Positions 29,147 through 35,689 of a DNA stretch of 64,000 bases are shown one piece after another. Each line of letters starts with the position of its first letter. Within the stretch, counting starts at the first letter, position 1. The notes beneath the pieces are model-generated. The model was not told the origin of the DNA and searched no databases. It saw only the letters and a list, made by a program, of their open reading frames with translations. This stretch comes from Sphingobacterium mizutaii (GTDB lineage: Bacteria; Bacteroidota; Bacteroidia; Sphingobacteriales; Sphingobacteriaceae). The stretch is from positions 2,852,001 to 2,916,000 of the forward strand of contig NZ_LT906468.1 in the NCBI RefSeq assembly GCF_900187125.1, read 5' to 3'. A program made the translations under genes and the position numbers.

Positions 29147-30421
29147 TTAAATATCATTGTTATTCAACAGCTCCAATATCTGTTGATAGGTATATTCTAA
29201 ATCTTCTTTCTCCGTACAATATGGCGGTAAGATATACAGCACATTGCCCATTGGTCTTAACAAGACCCCTCTCTTCATAAATTCATTGAACAACTTTTCC
29301 TGTACCCTATTAAAATAAGAGGTCTCGGATTTTGTTTCCCAATCAAAAGCAAGAATGGTTCCTGTTTGGCGGACATTCTTGGCGTTTTCATATCCTTTTA
29401 ACTCCTCTGCAAATTGATAATGCGATTCTACGATCGCTTTTATTTTCGCCTGGGTAGCATCGAGAAGCAATAAATCCATGCTTGCCAAGGATGCCGCACA
29501 TGCTATCGGACTTGCAGTAAAGGAATGGCCATGGAATAAGGCCTTCTTTTTATCATCCGAATAGAATGCTTGGTAAAGCTCCTCCGTGCAGGTTGTGATC
29601 CCCATGGGCATAGTACCGCCGGTCAGTCCTTTGGAAAAGCACATTACATCGGGCTTTTCAGTCAATTGATCCGCAGCAAATAAGGTCCCAGTTCTACCGA
29701 AGCCAACGAAGACTTCATCTTGAATCAATAAAACTCCTTGCGACTTACAATAAACCATTAAGTCCGATAAATGTTCGGCTTGATGCATCAACATCCCTCC
29801 TGCCCCTTGAACCAATGGTTCGTAAATGAAACAAGCAATCTGATCTGCATGCTCAGCAATGATCTTTTTATTCGCTTCCAGGTTTTCAGCCGTAGGCGCA
29901 TCAATAAATAGGACATCAAATAACAAATCTGCAAATGGCGCAGTCCACTGTCCACGAGCGCTTACCGACATGGCACCAAAGGTATCCCCATGGTATCCAT
30001 CCTTAAAAGCAACAATCTTATTCTTCTGCTTACCCTGATTATAGGCATACTGTATACACATTTTCAGGGCCACTTCCACTGCTGTTGAACCATTATCCGA
30101 ATAAAATACCTTCTCCTGATTAGAAGGAAGCAATTCTAATAACCTTTCTGAAAGAGTGATTGCTGGTAGATGCGTGAAGCCAGCAAAGATGACCTGCTCT
30201 AAAGTATTAAGCTGCTCATAAACTTTATCGGCAATATACGAATTTGAATGGCCATGGAGGTTAACCCACCACGAACTTACCATATCTAGATAGCGATTTC
30301 CTTCCATATCGAAAAGATAGGCATCCTTGCCACGTACAATGGGAAGATGTGTACTGGTTTTCATTTGCGAATAGGGATGCCAATTCACCGCAACATCACG
30401 GTCTATCCATTGCTGTTGCAA
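29147..30421 (-). CDS. bioA: Adenosylmethionine-8-amino-7-oxononanoate aminotransferase
   Basis: This 424-residue PLP enzyme uses SAM as amino donor to convert KAPA to DAPA. The class III aminotransferase features are NWHPYSQM and SSWWVNLHGH (substrate and SAM recognition), DNGSTAVEVALK (108-120), DEVFVGFGRTG (235-245) and the PLP Lys264 in CFSKGLTGG. Length and motifs fit BioA rather than the lysine-using variants. It is the last gene of the biotin operon and overlaps bioB by 19 nt. Confidence 0.95.
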   Translation of the reverse strand: MQQQWIDRDVAVNWHPYSQMKTSTHLPIVRGKDAYLFDMEGNRYLDMVSSWWVNLHGHSNSYIADKVYEQLNTLEQVIFAGFTHLPAITLSERLLELLPSNQEKVFYSDNGSTAVEVALKMCIQYAYNQGKQKNKIVAFKDGYHGDTFGAMSVSARGQWTAPFADLLFDVLFIDAPTAENLEANKKIIAEHADQIACFIYEPLVQGAGGMLMHQAEHLSDLMVYCKSQGVLLIQDEVFVGFGRTGTLFAADQLTEKPDVMCFSKGLTGGTMPMGITTCTEELYQAFYSDDKKKALFHGHSFTASPIACAASLASMDLLLLDATQAKIKAIVESHYQFAEELKGYENAKNVRQTGTILAFDWETKSETSYFNRVQEKLFNEFMKRGVLLRPMGNVLYILPPYCTEKEDLEYTYQQILELLNNNDI

Positions 30422-31401
30422 ACCGCCTCCTTTTTCACTTCCATTGGTCGCAACCCCAAGTTTTTCAACATCTGCATATCTTCATCAACCCCTGGATTTG
30501 GGGTAACCAACAAGGTCTGCCTTTCTCCTGTGAATATAGAATTGGCTCCCGCCATAAAACACCATGCCTGTTCCTCCTCATTCATTTCTATCCTACCGGC
30601 ACTCAATCTGACCATCGAGGAAGGCAATACAATCCTGGCAGTCGCAATCATCCTGACCATTTCCCAGGTATCAATCTTAGGGAGATTTTCTAATGGAGTA
30701 CCAGCGACCCTAGCCAAGGCATTGATCGGCACAGACTCAGGATGTTTTTCCATATTCGCCAAGGTGCGAAGCATCGAAATCCTATCTTCAGCCTTCTCAC
30801 CTAATCCAATAATACCGCCTGAGCAAACGGTAATACCAGCTTTCCTGACATTTTTGATGGTTTCGATCCTGTTGTCGAATTTCCTTGTTGAGATAATCTC
30901 ATCATAAAACTCTTCGGAAGTATCCAAGTTATGGTTATAGGCATATAGACCTGCTTCTTGAAGCCTGTTAGCCTGATCTTCGGTCAACATCCCTAAAGTG
31001 CAGCACACCTCCAAGCCCATTTCATTTACACCTTGGACCATTTCGATAATCCTATCAAAGTCTCTGTTGTCCCTAACTTCGCGCCATGCTGCTGCCATAC
31101 AGAAGCGAGAGGAACCGCTGTCCTTTGCTTTCTTTGCATGTGCCAATACGGTCTCGGTTGGCAATAAGGCCTGGACCTTGATATCGGTATGGTAGCGAGC
31201 CGCCTGACCACAGTAAGAACAGTCTTCGGGACATCCACCAGTCTTGACAGACAATAAAGTGGAAATCTGTACTTCTTGGGGATTATGCCATTGCCTATGT
31301 ACCGTTGCAGCCTCATAAACCAGTTCCAATAAGGGTTTATTGTAGATTTCCAACAACTCCTCTTTTGTCCAATCGTGTTTTAATGTTTTACTAGCACTCA
31401 T
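30403..31401 (-). CDS. bioB: Biotin synthase (radical SAM)
   Basis: The 332-residue radical SAM enzyme inserts sulfur into dethiobiotin. The cluster motif CPEDCSYCGQ (Cys57, Cys61, Cys64) binds the 4Fe-4S/SAM centre. Cys residues in KEVCCTLGM and CSGGIIGLGE with the later RLSAGRIEM provide the 2Fe-2S site, the last Arg being the usual non-Cys ligand. Length is normal. It lies 4 bp after bioD and overlaps bioA. Confidence 0.96.
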   Translation of the reverse strand: MSASKTLKHDWTKEELLEIYNKPLLELVYEAATVHRQWHNPQEVQISTLLSVKTGGCPEDCSYCGQAARYHTDIKVQALLPTETVLAHAKKAKDSGSSRFCMAAAWREVRDNRDFDRIIEMVQGVNEMGLEVCCTLGMLTEDQANRLQEAGLYAYNHNLDTSEEFYDEIISTRKFDNRIETIKNVRKAGITVCSGGIIGLGEKAEDRISMLRTLANMEKHPESVPINALARVAGTPLENLPKIDTWEMVRMIATARIVLPSSMVRLSAGRIEMNEEEQAWCFMAGANSIFTGERQTLLVTPNPGVDEDMQMLKNLGLRPMEVKKEAVCNSNG

Positions 31402-31405
31402 TTTT

Positions 31406-32023
31406 TTATTTTTCTATTCTAATTTTTTTAATTGCTTTTTCTAAACCTGCAGCATCTATTGTTTCGAATTGTGGAATCTCCATTATCTTACTTCCAGCTG
31501 GTTTGTTCTTGATCAATATCCTTCTACTGGATTCCTTGAACTCTCCATTCAAGACGATATATTCGACGGCTATCCCGCGTTCATTCAAGCTGTGAAAGGA
31601 GAGCAAACTATGGTTGATGCTTCCCAAATAATCTGAACATACCAGTATTACCGGAAGGTCTAAATGCTCTGCCAGGTCTATGATAAATTCCTGATCGTTT
31701 ATGGGAACAAACATGCCTCCTGCACCTTCTACAATCAGGTTACCGCTTGTTTCAGGGAGTTGAAAGTCTTGGATCGATATCTCGACTCCATCGACTTCCG
31801 CAGAATAATGCGGGGAAGCGGGAGTATTTAATTTGAATCGTTCAGGATGAACGATGAGCTCATTGCCTACTAATGCTCGAAGCATCAGGCTATCGCTGCT
31901 TTCTAGATCTCCTGATTGTATAGGTTTCCAGTATTTGGCGTTCCAAAGCTTTACCAGGACTGCCGAAACAATGGTTTTCCCTACAGATGTGCCGATTCCA
32001 GTAACAAAATATTTCTTACTCAT
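31406..32023 (-). CDS. bioD: Dethiobiotin synthetase
   Basis: The 205-residue ATPase closes the ureido ring of dethiobiotin from DAPA and CO2. It has the P-loop GIGTSVGKT (9-17), KPIQSGDLESSDS as the DAPA-binding strand, and IVEGAGGMFVPI, the hallmark GAGG loop. It overlaps bioF by 8 nt. It is slightly shorter than the usual 220-230 residues but complete. Confidence 0.94.
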   Translation of the reverse strand: MSKKYFVTGIGTSVGKTIVSAVLVKLWNAKYWKPIQSGDLESSDSLMLRALVGNELIVHPERFKLNTPASPHYSAEVDGVEISIQDFQLPETSGNLIVEGAGGMFVPINDQEFIIDLAEHLDLPVILVCSDYLGSINHSLLSFHSLNERGIAVEYIVLNGEFKESSRRILIKNKPAGSKIMEIPQFETIDAAGLEKAIKKIRIEK

Positions 32024-33128
32024 TTTTTATTTCTTTTAGGCTGTTCTTTAATAACCCAATTTCTTCTTTTGTGTTGAAGGAATGAATGGAAATACGCAAC
32101 ATTTCTTCTTCTTTAGCCACGGTGGGATGCTTGATGGCATAGCTTAAAATCCTTTGTTTTTCCAATAATTCAACTGCCTTCTCCAAATCCCTTGAATCTG
32201 GAAACCTGATCGGTATTATGGGACTTCTAAAAGGACTGGCATCAACTTCTTCGATAGGAAGAAATTGTTTAACATTAGCTTGTAGACCATAAATTAGCAA
32301 TTCATTATCCTTTAAAAAATCATAGGATGCTTTAATTGCTAAAGCATGAAAATCAGGCATTCCCGTAGTATAGATAAAGGTTGAAGAATAGTTGATCAGA
32401 TACGCAATAAGGCTTGAAGAACCTAAGATTGATGCCCCAGATAAACCCATTGACTTACCATAAGTGATCACTGTTGCGAAAACCTGGTTCTGTAATCCAA
32501 AATGATCCACCAAGCCCAAACCACAAGTCCCGATAGCATGGGCTTCATCAACAATCAAGGCTGCTGAATACTGTTGGCATAGAGCTGCAATATCTTGGAT
32601 CGGAGCAAAATCCCCATCCATGGAATAAAGACTTTCTATCCCTACCCAGATATGACCTGTAGCTTTCTTTAGTAATTCTTCGAGATGGTCCAGGTTATTA
32701 TGTCGAAATTTCCAACGATTCGCCGGTGATAGTCTACAGCCATCATAAACAGATCGATGAACCTTCTCATCTAATAGGATCGTATCGGATTTCTTCGGCA
32801 ATGTTGAGAATAAGGCAAGGTTCGCGTTGTATCCAGATGGAAATAATAAAGCTGATTCAAAACCATGTTGATTCGCGATAAACTGCTCTATCTCCATCTG
32901 TAAGTCTGAATTTCCTGAGATTAGCCTAGAACCAGTAGCCCCCAATATAGATTCCGGGTATTGAAGCACCAAAGCATGCAACCTGTCCTTAAATTCTTCA
33001 TTTTGCGCAAAACCTAGGTAATCATTTGAAAAGAAATCAATTCCTTGTCTTTCCTTCTTTAACTGCCTATATCGTCCTGAGTGCTTTCTATTCTGCAGCT
33101 CTACCCTAAATTCATCAATTATTGACAT
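32016..33128 (-). CDS. bioF: 8-amino-7-oxononanoate synthase
   Basis: Start ATG 33126-33128 (MSIIDEFRVELQNRK) gives 370 residues; a TTG 12 nt upstream is less likely. This alpha-oxoamine synthase condenses a pimeloyl thioester with alanine. Motifs are DFFSNDYLGFA, GATGSRLISGN, FPSGYNANLA, DEAHAIGTCG and the PLP Lys225 in TYGKSMGLSG. The start overlaps the end of the ferritin-like gene by 14 nt, indicating translational coupling. Confidence 0.93.
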   Translation of the reverse strand: MSIIDEFRVELQNRKHSGRYRQLKKERQGIDFFSNDYLGFAQNEEFKDRLHALVLQYPESILGATGSRLISGNSDLQMEIEQFIANQHGFESALLFPSGYNANLALFSTLPKKSDTILLDEKVHRSVYDGCRLSPANRWKFRHNNLDHLEELLKKATGHIWVGIESLYSMDGDFAPIQDIAALCQQYSAALIVDEAHAIGTCGLGLVDHFGLQNQVFATVITYGKSMGLSGASILGSSSLIAYLINYSSTFIYTTGMPDFHALAIKASYDFLKDNELLIYGLQANVKQFLPIEEVDASPFRSPIIPIRFPDSRDLEKAVELLEKQRILSYAIKHPTVAKEEEMLRISIHSFNTKEEIGLLKNSLKEIKNE

Positions 33129-33735
33129 CACAAAGCGCAACTTCCTTTGAAACCTCAGCTATCCAATGATGAAATAATGCTGCTTCAATCTGCAAAACAT
33201 GCTCAGCATGTGCCTCCCATTTAGGATCAAATCCCTTCAATTGGCTGATCATTTCCTCAAGATGGCCTTCCTCTTCTAGAATAATGGATTTTACCATCAC
33301 TTTTGATCCGACCGAAGTCAGTACTTCTTGGTAGATTGGGTACAATTCATCTGCCCTTACCTCGATAGCATAGGTCACAAATAAGTATGCAGCATAACGT
33401 AATTCTTGACCAGTAAGATTAAACTGTTCTTTTAGATATCGACTGGTTTTTACATCCAGACGATGTAAATATTGGACGGAGGCCTTTCCTCCTATCAATG
33501 AACTTTCATTATAAAATTCAAAGCCTTCTATTCCTAATTTTCCTATTTGCTTCTTAAGGTAATAGGCGTGTCTATGCTCCTCAGCAGCATGCTTCAGTTG
33601 AATCAGATCTGTATTCAATGGATCTTCGCATGCTGAAATCTTTCTCGCTCCGGCATTTTCCATAAAAGAAAGGGTATTGAGCCATTTAGCATGAAGTATG
33701 GCATCTGCCACTATTTGTTCCAGGATTGCTTTCAT
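33115..33735 (-). CDS. Ferritin-like di-iron protein, first gene of the biotin operon
   Basis: A 206-residue helical protein with a complete di-iron carboxylate pattern: Glu26 in helix 1, Glu53xxHis56 in helix 2 (AEEHRHAYYL), Glu125 in helix 3 (YAIEVRADEL) and Glu155xxHis158 in helix 4 (LEEEGHLEE). This Glu-ExxH-Glu-ExxH arrangement is that of ferritin-like oxidases, rubrerythrin and AurF-type N-oxygenases. It opens the biotin operon and overlaps bioF by 14 nt, which argues for a role in biotin synthesis, perhaps in supplying the pimeloyl precursor in the absence of bioC/bioH here. That role is inference. Iron storage or peroxide protection of BioB are alternatives. Confidence 0.75.
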   Translation of the reverse strand: MKAILEQIVADAILHAKWLNTLSFMENAGARKISACEDPLNTDLIQLKHAAEEHRHAYYLKKQIGKLGIEGFEFYNESSLIGGKASVQYLHRLDVKTSRYLKEQFNLTGQELRYAAYLFVTYAIEVRADELYPIYQEVLTSVGSKVMVKSIILEEEGHLEEMISQLKGFDPKWEAHAEHVLQIEAALFHHWIAEVSKEVALCDVNN

Positions 33736-33751
33736 ATTTTTCTAATTGGAC

Positions 33752-33781
33752 CAAAAGTACTACCTTGCCGGATGGTTCAAA
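33752..33781 (-). promoter_or_regulatory. Promoter of the biotin operon
   Basis: On the minus strand TTTG (33778-33781), 18 nt and TACTTTTG (33752-33759) match the Bacteroidota consensus, 17 bp upstream of the ferritin-like start. The imperfect direct repeats TTGGACCAAAAG (33746-33757) and ATGGTTCAAAGG (33772-33783), on the plus strand, cover both boxes and may be the binding site of the divergent MocR regulator. Confidence 0.6.
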
Positions 33782-33799
33782 GGTGCCAGTTTCAAGAAT

Positions 33800-35269
33800 A
33801 TGATTAGTCCGGTTAGCATTCCCTTTAAAAGTTTTATCCAAATACAAAGAAATTCTGCGACACCCATTTACTTACAGGTGGCAAATCAATTTATCCAAGC
33901 TATCGCACAAGGGAAGCTTAAACCAGGAACTAAATTATTAGGGACAAGAGCATTAGGAGACCTCTTAGAAGTCCACAGAAACACGATTACTGCAGTCTAT
34001 GAAGAACTCTTTGGACAAGGTTGGGTTGAAATCCATCCGAATAAAGGAACCTATGTAGCCTCCCAACTCCCGCTTCAAGATCTTCAAACTTCCAGCAGCT
34101 TTCAGTATCCAAAAGAAACCGGTTATACTTTCAAAAAATCAATATTACTGGACAGTCCTTTTGAACACACCAACTGCGACTATATATTAAATGATGGCAG
34201 TCCTGACATCCGATTGACCCAATTCGACGATTTATCAAGATTTTATAGCTCCAACATGAAGCGCAAAAGCAATCGTTCTAAAATGGGCTATTACAATCAA
34301 GAAGGCAGTGAGTATTTCAAGGAACAGATGCTTGATTACCTGCAGAGCAGTCGAGCCTTGAAGATCAATAAAAACAATCTTCTCATCAGTAGAAGTATAG
34401 AAATGAGTCTTTTTATTATTTCTGAGATCTTGCTTTCAGCAGATGACACTGTTGTTGTAGCTGAACTGAGTTATTTTGCGGCAAACATGATTTTTCAGAA
34501 ATCAGGCAGCAAAATCAAATCCATTCCTTTAGAAGATGACGGCATAGATGTGGAAGCCCTGGAAAGACTTTGCAAAAAGCAAACTGTCCGTATGCTATAC
34601 CTCACGGCACAACAGCATTACCCTACTACAGTTAGCCTGAGCGCGCATAAAAGAATGAAAATCCTTCAACTTGCCAATCAATACGGCTTCATTATCGTAG
34701 AGGATGACCATGATTACGATTTCCAGTTCGACAAGCAGCCTCTATTGCCCCTTGCCACTTCAGATCAGAATGGAATGTTGATTTATGTAGGTTCCTTTGG
34801 GAAATCACTTGCGCCGGGATTCCGAACAAGTTTTATCATTGCCCCTGAAAACCTAATGGTAGAAATGCGAAAGCATTTAGGGATCATTGACAGGCAAGGC
34901 GACATCCTTATGGAGCAAGCTTTAGGCGAAATGATTGAAGAAGGTGCGATCCATAGGCACCTCAAAAAATCGTTGAAAGTATATAAAGAAAGAAGAGATT
35001 ACATGGCCCATTTACTGGAAAAAGAATTAGGTGATATGTTGGAATTTCAAATTCCAAATGGTGGCTTGGCATTTTGGTTAAAATGGAAAAAACCAATCAA
35101 TCTACTCAAGCTAAGCCTGCAAGCTGCCAAAAACAATCTCTTCATCCCAAAAACATTACTGTACCAGCAAAAGAACCTGCAGGCAATGCGCATTGGGTTT
35201 GGAAACCTGAACTTAGAAGAAATGGAAAGATCTATCCAGATCCTAAAAAAGAGCCTCTTGGAAATTTAA
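33800..35269 (+). CDS. MocR-type transcriptional regulator (GntR HTH plus aminotransferase domain)
   Basis: ATG 33800 (MISPVSIPFKSFIQIQ) is chosen over the TTG at 33746, which lies inside the divergent promoter; this gives 489 residues. The N-terminal winged helix (about 15-85) reads PIYLQVANQFIQAI, LGTRALGDLLEVHRNTITAV, GWVEIHPNKGTYV. A fold-type I aminotransferase domain follows with YYNQEGSEYFKEQML, EDDHDYDF and the PLP lysine in GSFGKSLAPGFR. MocR regulators sense PLP and amino compounds. Only 64 bp separate it from the divergent biotin operon, so control of bio genes is the natural inference, though MocR proteins more often control PLP or GABA genes. Confidence 0.85.
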   Translation: MISPVSIPFKSFIQIQRNSATPIYLQVANQFIQAIAQGKLKPGTKLLGTRALGDLLEVHRNTITAVYEELFGQGWVEIHPNKGTYVASQLPLQDLQTSSSFQYPKETGYTFKKSILLDSPFEHTNCDYILNDGSPDIRLTQFDDLSRFYSSNMKRKSNRSKMGYYNQEGSEYFKEQMLDYLQSSRALKINKNNLLISRSIEMSLFIISEILLSADDTVVVAELSYFAANMIFQKSGSKIKSIPLEDDGIDVEALERLCKKQTVRMLYLTAQQHYPTTVSLSAHKRMKILQLANQYGFIIVEDDHDYDFQFDKQPLLPLATSDQNGMLIYVGSFGKSLAPGFRTSFIIAPENLMVEMRKHLGIIDRQGDILMEQALGEMIEEGAIHRHLKKSLKVYKERRDYMAHLLEKELGDMLEFQIPNGGLAFWLKWKKPINLLKLSLQAAKNNLFIPKTLLYQQKNLQAMRIGFGNLNLEEMERSIQILKKSLLEI

Positions 35270-35272
35270 TGC

Positions 35273-35689
35273 TTAGTTAGCCAAAATCGGTCTGCTTTCT
35301 CTTGGTTGCGAATCTTTATAATGCACATACATGCGCTTATATTTCACCATCTCCCGAGAATCCGCAAGATAATTCATCTTGGTATCCCTGAAGACTAATT
35401 GAGCAGCCTTTTTCTCCATTTTAGTTGCAAAATCAAGAAACTCGCGAAAAAGCAGCCGGCGTTCATGGGTAGAGAAACTACTCTGTTGACAAACATTTAA
35501 GATTAGCTCTTCATCAAAATGCAAGGTAATTTTAGTGCCATGTGAATTCAAGAGGTAAAAAATCGGTCTAGCAGAATTATTTGGGAATAAGCCAAACCCT
35601 ATAACACCATTATCAGTGTTGAATACGTAAGCATAAAAGTGCATAGTGCCAATCAATGCAGAATCTACTAGTATGTTTTTGGTAACCAT
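35273..35689 (-). CDS. Hypothetical protein, 138 aa
   Basis: I do not recognise this protein. It is soluble, with a beta-rich first half (MHFYAYVFNTDNGVIGFGLF, RPIFYLLNSHGTKITLHFDE) and a helical, charged second half (HERRLLFREFLDFATKMEKK), followed by a basic tail. It has one Cys and no signal peptide. It converges tail to tail with the MocR gene, 3 bp apart, without a visible terminator between them. Confidence 0.55.
   Translation of the reverse strand: MVTKNILVDSALIGTMHFYAYVFNTDNGVIGFGLFPNNSARPIFYLLNSHGTKITLHFDEELILNVCQQSSFSTHERRLLFREFLDFATKMEKKAAQLVFRDTKMNYLADSREMVKYKRMYVHYKDSQPRESRPILAN

Follow-up and report, generated by a model that had tools for sequence, protein, structure and literature searches.

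A predicted BioE ortholog at the head of the biotin operon of Sphingobacterium mizutaii and a putative operator for its divergent regulator BioL

The biotin genes of Sphingobacterium mizutaii raise the question of where the pimeloyl chain of the vitamin comes from. In the window (the whole stretch of 64,000 nucleotides that was analysed), a gene for a ferritin-like diiron protein leads bioF, bioD, bioB and bioA, and neither bioC nor bioH was found among the eight genes scanned around this operon, in agreement with the preliminary description of the locus. That description had proposed that a di-iron oxidase might form the pimeloyl chain by cleaving an acyl chain oxidatively, as the P450 BioI does, or might protect the clusters of BioB, and had held that no biotin role was established for such a family. 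The latter statement is out of date: the Elizabethkingia meningoseptica enzyme BioE, a ferritin-like diiron oxygenase, was described in 2025 as cutting long-chain acyl-ACP or acyl-CoA at the C7-C8 bond, which gives pimeloyl-ACP or pimeloyl-CoA (PMC12915131, Adv Sci, December 2025, where Xu et al., PNAS 2025, e2501226122, is cited as the founding report). The proposed oxidative cleavage is the activity reported there for BioE, of which the window protein is an ortholog. The activity having been published, the feature itself is already known; by the discoverers' count it is the fourth characterised way of forming the pimeloyl moiety (PMC12915131), and it accounts for biotin synthesis without BioC-BioH in some of the Bacteroidota.

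The bioE gene, its operon and its distribution

The bioE gene (33115-33735, minus strand) is an open reading frame of 206 codons with an ATG start. It is followed on the same strand by bioF (8-amino-7-oxononanoate synthase, 32016-33128, minus strand), bioD (dethiobiotin synthase, 31406-32023, minus strand), bioB (biotin synthase, 30403-31401, minus strand) and bioA (adenosylmethionine-8-amino-7-oxononanoate transaminase, 29147-30421, minus strand). BioD, BioB and BioA scored over the cut-offs of TIGR00347, TIGR00433 and TIGR00508, respectively, and the best match of BioF was TIGR00858, with 298 bits, under the cut-off of 426. The last base of the bioE stop codon is 33115 and the bioF ATG lies at 33128 (an alternative TTG is found farther upstream, at 33140), so that the 14-nt overlap at the head of bioF-bioD-bioB-bioA described previously was confirmed from the ORF coordinates. 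The bioF and bioD genes overlap by 8 nt, bioD and bioB are separated by 4 nt, and bioB and bioA overlap by 19 nt if TTG 30421 is the bioA start. Since none of these gaps and overlaps exceeds 19 bases, the five genes were taken as a single operon, bioEFDBA.

The full set of diiron ligands pointed out in the preliminary description (Glu26, Glu53xxHis56, Glu125, Glu155xxHis158) is present in the window protein, and all 81 sequences of the alignment, the window included, share the six residues (E26, E53, H56, E125, E155, H158). They carry the same residue numbers as the ligands of EmBioE (PMC12915131, Figure 3 legend). The pocket residues published for EmBioE (L22, Y117, I124 and L131) were also invariant in the 81 aligned proteins. 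Compared with its homologs from three Elizabethkingia loci (L046, L066 and L082), the window protein was 65-66% identical over residues 1-199 of 206, which lies well above the ortholog rule of the discoverers (more than 40% identity to EmBioE with more than 85% coverage; PMC12915131), as measured on these three homologs and not on E. meningoseptica itself. Among the CoA-interface residues proposed for EmBioE are R87 and K46 (PMC12915131, section 2.4). Residue 87 is Val in the aligned window protein; therefore, the carrier preference of BioE in this species may differ. All 81 sequences, the three Elizabethkingia homologs among them, had Gln at position 46, and position 48 was Lys; the K46 of the published list possibly stems from misnumbering or from a difference between species.

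According to PMC12915131, BioE orthologs require O2 and a reductant and convert C14-C18 acyl-ACP into pimeloyl-ACP, with undecanoic acid as the second product from C18; CpBioE, the Chlamydia psittaci enzyme, contains about two Fe. The same source reports that a BioE ortholog rescues E. coli bioC and bioH deletions and that bioE and bioL mutants are auxotrophic, the activity, the mutant auxotrophy and the binding of BioL to the promoters having been shown in Elizabethkingia, Chryseobacterium or Chlamydia. The protein studied here has the ligand set, is encoded together with bioF, bioD, bioB and bioA, and belongs to a genome with no BioC over the model cut-off (see below). Hence, we regard it as very probably a pimeloyl-forming BioE ortholog, accompanied by the operon and the divergent BioL as proposed overall.

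Genome contigs were scanned for BioE and the best 80 of 451 relatives, mostly from Chryseobacterium, were kept. Among these closest 80 of 451 loci, bioE was followed by bioF in 73 and by bioB in 7, and a divergent bioL adjoined bioE in 76. Among the best 80 of 451, the named relative closest to the locus was a Sphingobacterium (L005; BioE 69%, BioB 88%). A phylum sample of 395 Bacteroidota genomes, which is less biased than the closest 80 loci, was analysed with cut-offs of E<=1e-40 for bioB and E<=1e-30 for BioC. BioE was found in 14 of the 395 genomes (4 of 170 genera), bioB in 193 and BioC in 122; the scores of the 122 BioC genomes ranged from 126 to 239 bits, with 80 of them over the model cut-off. 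All 14 BioE genomes contained bioB and none contained BioC at E<=1e-30 (Fisher p 3e-6 among the bioB-positive genomes, a value that ignores shared ancestry and is indicative only). That BioE and BioC were never found together in 395 genomes tests the published claim independently, from genomic data. Each of the 14 bioE copies adjoined another bio gene; bioL was adjacent in nine, and was not present in the short flank examined of the other five, which belong to one genus (L095-L099).

This distribution also bears on a ferritin- or rubrerythrin-like role, in which the protein would protect the iron-sulfur clusters of BioB or would store or detoxify iron and oxygen, pimelate being formed by another route. 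The ferritin-like fold of BioE, the operon shared with BioB and the weak contact of 2 of 24 family members with Pfam Rubrerythrin (best E 0.0059) are consistent with such a role. Nevertheless, 179 of the 193 bioB-bearing genomes of the sample yielded no BioE, indicating that BioB does not need BioE, and its failure to coincide with BioC (0/14) is not predicted of a protective protein. In addition, the published ortholog cleaves acyl chains and rescues E. coli devoid of bioC or bioH (PMC12915131). We therefore consider a protective role very improbable, and the protection of BioB clusters put forward initially is left without support.

Two further observations were made in the phylum sample. 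In the genus of L095-L099, which belongs to the same family, bioE lies beside bioA in four genomes and beside bioF in one; in two of them bioB is located on another contig, and in three it shares the contig of bioE at a distance of ~110-606 kb; neither bioL nor the operator motif was found in the short flanks. Of the 193 bioB-positive genomes, 68 have neither BioE nor BioC (E<=1e-30). Thirteen of these 68 bioB loci were inspected: seven had bioB without bioF, bioD or bioA within 19 kb, two were partial and four (G122, L102; G166, L106; G039, L108; G164, L110) had bioB-F-D-A runs. BioC-like matches elsewhere in these four genomes were weak (best, 75.5 bits), and these genomes may rely on another route, on a divergent BioC or on BioZ.

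Fold of BioE and search for other pimeloyl routes

No Pfam family was found for the window BioE up to E 10, and no NCBIfam family either; therefore, annotation pipelines resting on those models may still label BioE as hypothetical. The sole match in a PDB sequence search was bacterioferritin (E 0.065), which the BioE family profile did not improve, and Foldseek against the PDB gave zero matches at E<=0.001. The AlphaFold2 model of the protein is a helical bundle (mean pLDDT 93.6, pTM 0.89). After structural realignment the best neighbours were proteins of the aldehyde-deformylating-oxygenase type (Z 16.8, rmsd 2.5, 173 aligned residues), followed by the tRNA hydroxylase MiaE (Z 15.9, rmsd 2.6, 173 aligned residues), scores that must be read with the caveat that helical bundles can attain Z ~14 without meaning. 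These neighbours could suggest a different diiron reaction, such as a MiaE-like tRNA hydroxylation or an aldehyde deformylation, but identity to them is 14-18%, the window protein does not belong to their Pfam families, and neither of these was among the 10 Pfam families that touch any of 24 BioE members at E<=1. Moreover, bioE is found with biotin genes in all 80 of the closest loci (best 80 of 451) and in all 14 loci of the phylum sample. A reaction of this kind is hardly credible for BioE, whose likeness to these proteins is one of shared fold only.

The S. mizutaii genome (one contig, 4.65 Mb, 99.98% complete) was searched with models for BioC, BioG, BioW and P450. It contains one bioE copy in its 4.65 Mb. 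No BioC was found over the cut-off of 185 bits; 15 places with BioC-like methyltransferases lay below it, the best of them with 74.9 bits, and this place reached 165 bits with the trans-aconitate methyltransferase model (cut-off 297) as against 75 with BioC. BioG, BioW and P450 (BioI type) gave zero matches at E<=0.1. The BioG model matched none of 14 control genomes, but it matched 82 of 395 across the phylum and hence works in Bacteroidota. The preliminary description had named a bioC-bioH pair elsewhere in the genome as part of what would speak against its proposal. For BioC, the half of this pair that the search covered, there was nothing over the cut-off and a best match of trans-aconitate-methyltransferase type; of the alternative routes whose search had been recommended, BioC, BioG, BioW and the BioI-type P450 were covered. 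That BioE is redundant, with pimelate supplied by an unrecognised BioC-BioH-type pair encoded elsewhere, would fit the 15 places under the cut-off (74.9 versus 185 bits) and a search confined to the four models above, but it is scarcely believable given that the BioC genomes of the phylum score 126-239 bits (80 of 122 over the cut-off), that the best match in this genome scores higher with trans-aconitate methyltransferase, and that the catalytic residues of BioE are all intact.

The BioE pathway is thus the reading that we favour. By orthology with the published enzymes, the di-iron centre of BioE, with O2 and external electrons, would cleave the C7-C8 bond of a long-chain acyl-ACP, acyl-CoA possibly being a substrate as well, and would release pimeloyl-ACP/CoA, plus undecanoic acid when the chain is C18. 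BioF, BioA, BioD and BioB, encoded in the same operon, would then convert this product into biotin, so that BioC and BioH would not be needed. BioL, which is reported to respond to 8-amino-7-oxononanoate (PMC12915131), would repress bioEFDBA by acting at a site that overlaps with the bioE promoter.

The divergent regulator BioL and a putative operator

The gene divergent to bioE (33800-35269, plus strand), which was absent from the preliminary description, encodes a protein with the Pfam domains GntR and Aminotran_1_2 and shares the promoter region with bioE. BioL has been described as the MocR-family repressor of the BioE pathway, with R50 as DNA-contact residue and K340 as PLP lysine (PMC12915131). 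In our alignment R50 was invariant in 77 of 77 copies, and residue 335, which corresponds to K340 of Elizabethkingia, was Lys in 76 and Arg in one. The first methionine was also invariant (77/77) and aligns with ATG 33800; because of this, the TTG start at 33746 that results from mechanical ORF calling is probably not used. Judging by its MocR architecture, with R50 and the PLP lysine, the divergent gene is a bioL ortholog, and repression of the bioE promoter by its product is predicted. Among NCBIfam models, PdxR (pyridoxine regulator) matched the protein best, but its 295 bits fall short of the cut-off of 320, and NCBIfam would leave the protein unnamed. Beyond bioL, a 138-aa ORF (35273-35689) had no Pfam match, and upstream of this ORF there is a gene for a protein of 113 aa that is rich in cysteine and contains five DUF326 stretches (PF03860; 35878-36219, minus strand).

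Conservation of the bioL-bioE intergenic region exceeds what two start codons need, and comprises CCGGACTA, AAACTGGYACC, ATCCGGCAA and then TACTTTTG. The last of these (33752-33759, minus strand) is a candidate -7 element of the bioE promoter, on the basis of TAnnTTTG, which we take to be the Bacteroidota -7 consensus. The other conserved blocks make up a putative three-part BioL operator (33765-33812, minus strand), recognised by the alignment and by a two-block matrix. Its first part, CCGGACTA (33812-33805, minus strand), coincides in the window with the initial codons of bioL, the second is the conserved block CTGGCACC (33789-33782, minus strand) and the third is the conserved block CCGGCAA (33771-33765, minus strand), the starts of the putative repeats being 23 and 18 nt apart.

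The two-block matrix was trained on 65 loci. At >=25 bits it gave 83 matches across the 1.58 Mb of locus sequence, and a Markov-shuffled control of 4.74 Mb gave none. Eighty-two of the 83 sit 57-213 nt upstream of bioE, a number in which two sites are counted repeatedly (window/L089/L100 and L093/L117). The remaining one, at position 935411 of the S. mizutaii genome (L085, 26.8 bits), lies inside an open reading frame; L085 was chosen by pattern search and not by bioE, and L085, L089 and L100 are counted in the 83 and stand outside the held-out list. Genome-wide, the operator pattern was found in two places, the window site and 935411, and in none with the reversed-pattern control. We take the 935411 match as due to chance, although it scores as high as many real sites, and the specificity of the matrix is thus imperfect. 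Out of 46 held-out loci, 17 reached 22 bits, each of them upstream of bioE (L093 and L117 being one site). The 29 that did not include five of six held-out Chitinophaga loci (the exception was L039), L064, L065 and L076, together with L095-L099, where bioE has no adjacent bioL, and L101, where bioB and bioL are neighbours. With a loose threshold of 14 bits, 74 of 81 loci had matches before bioE (77 in all), and 206 matches fell elsewhere; four of these 206 were sites >160 nt upstream of bioE and the rest were taken as noise, mononucleotide shuffles having given 80. No operator site was detected by this 14-bit scan of 81 loci within 160 nt before bioF, bioD, bioB or bioA.

Binding of BioL at the bioB promoter of Elizabethkingia has been reported, and palindromic probes of ~50 bp are mentioned in the same source (PMC12915131). 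Neither by eye nor with the matrix was an operator-like site seen before bioB in three Elizabethkingia loci, and the motif therefore does not explain that result. The CCGGACTA element is retained in two loci without a detected bioL, L064 and L076, and in the form CCGGAC in a third, L025; in two Chitinophaga loci (L011 and L039) it is placed >150 nt away from the bioL start. This indicates that the first element, as conserved among these loci, is more than bioL coding sequence.

The sister genome G359 (L101, 9279-11788), from the same genus, has at the bio place bioB and, divergent to it, a gene for a BioL-like protein (48% identity), with an operator variant between them, bioE, bioF, bioD and bioA being absent there. 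The variant scores 17.0 bits, within the noise range, and was recognised by its position and by CCGGACTA; the arrangement perhaps represents dethiobiotin salvage under BioL control. We infer that the conserved motif is the BioL operator. More specifically, and with somewhat better than even confidence, we propose that BioL reads a three-part, roughly direct-repeat operator (CCGGACTA - CTGGYACC - CCGGCAA) over the bioE core promoter and, in the window, over the bioL start. Owing to this double overlap, a single site would govern both bioEFDBA and bioL, and the site would travel with bioL, since G359 retains a variant between bioL and bioB after the loss of bioE, bioF, bioD and bioA.

Comparison with known systems

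Sphingobacteriaceae are already among the BioE-bearing families listed in PMC12915131. The window adds one BioE member with a single-operon arrangement within a bacterial family named by the discoverers, and the additions of the present analysis are small, namely the conserved three-part putative operator and the mutual exclusion of BioE and BioC.

The window protein resembles EmBioE in the six ligands at equal residue numbers, in the pocket residues, in the place of its gene before bioF and in the divergent MocR regulator. It differs in residue 87 (Val instead of Arg) and is 34-35% divergent from the Elizabethkingia homologs. The single bioEFDBA operon contrasts with Elizabethkingia, for which bioEFD and bioBA promoters are described in PMC12915131. 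The window BioL shares with the published one the GntR-type N-terminus and the aminotransferase domain, R50, the PLP lysine and the orientation divergent to bioE, the lysine being at position 335 in the window and at 340 in Elizabethkingia.

BioI of Bacillus subtilis is a heme P450 and thus belongs to another enzyme family, of which the S. mizutaii genome gave no match. Aldehyde-deformylating oxygenase and MiaE have the ferritin-like diiron fold in common with BioE, but they act on other substrates, differ from it in sequence (14-18% identity) and lack the biotin context in which bioE is found.
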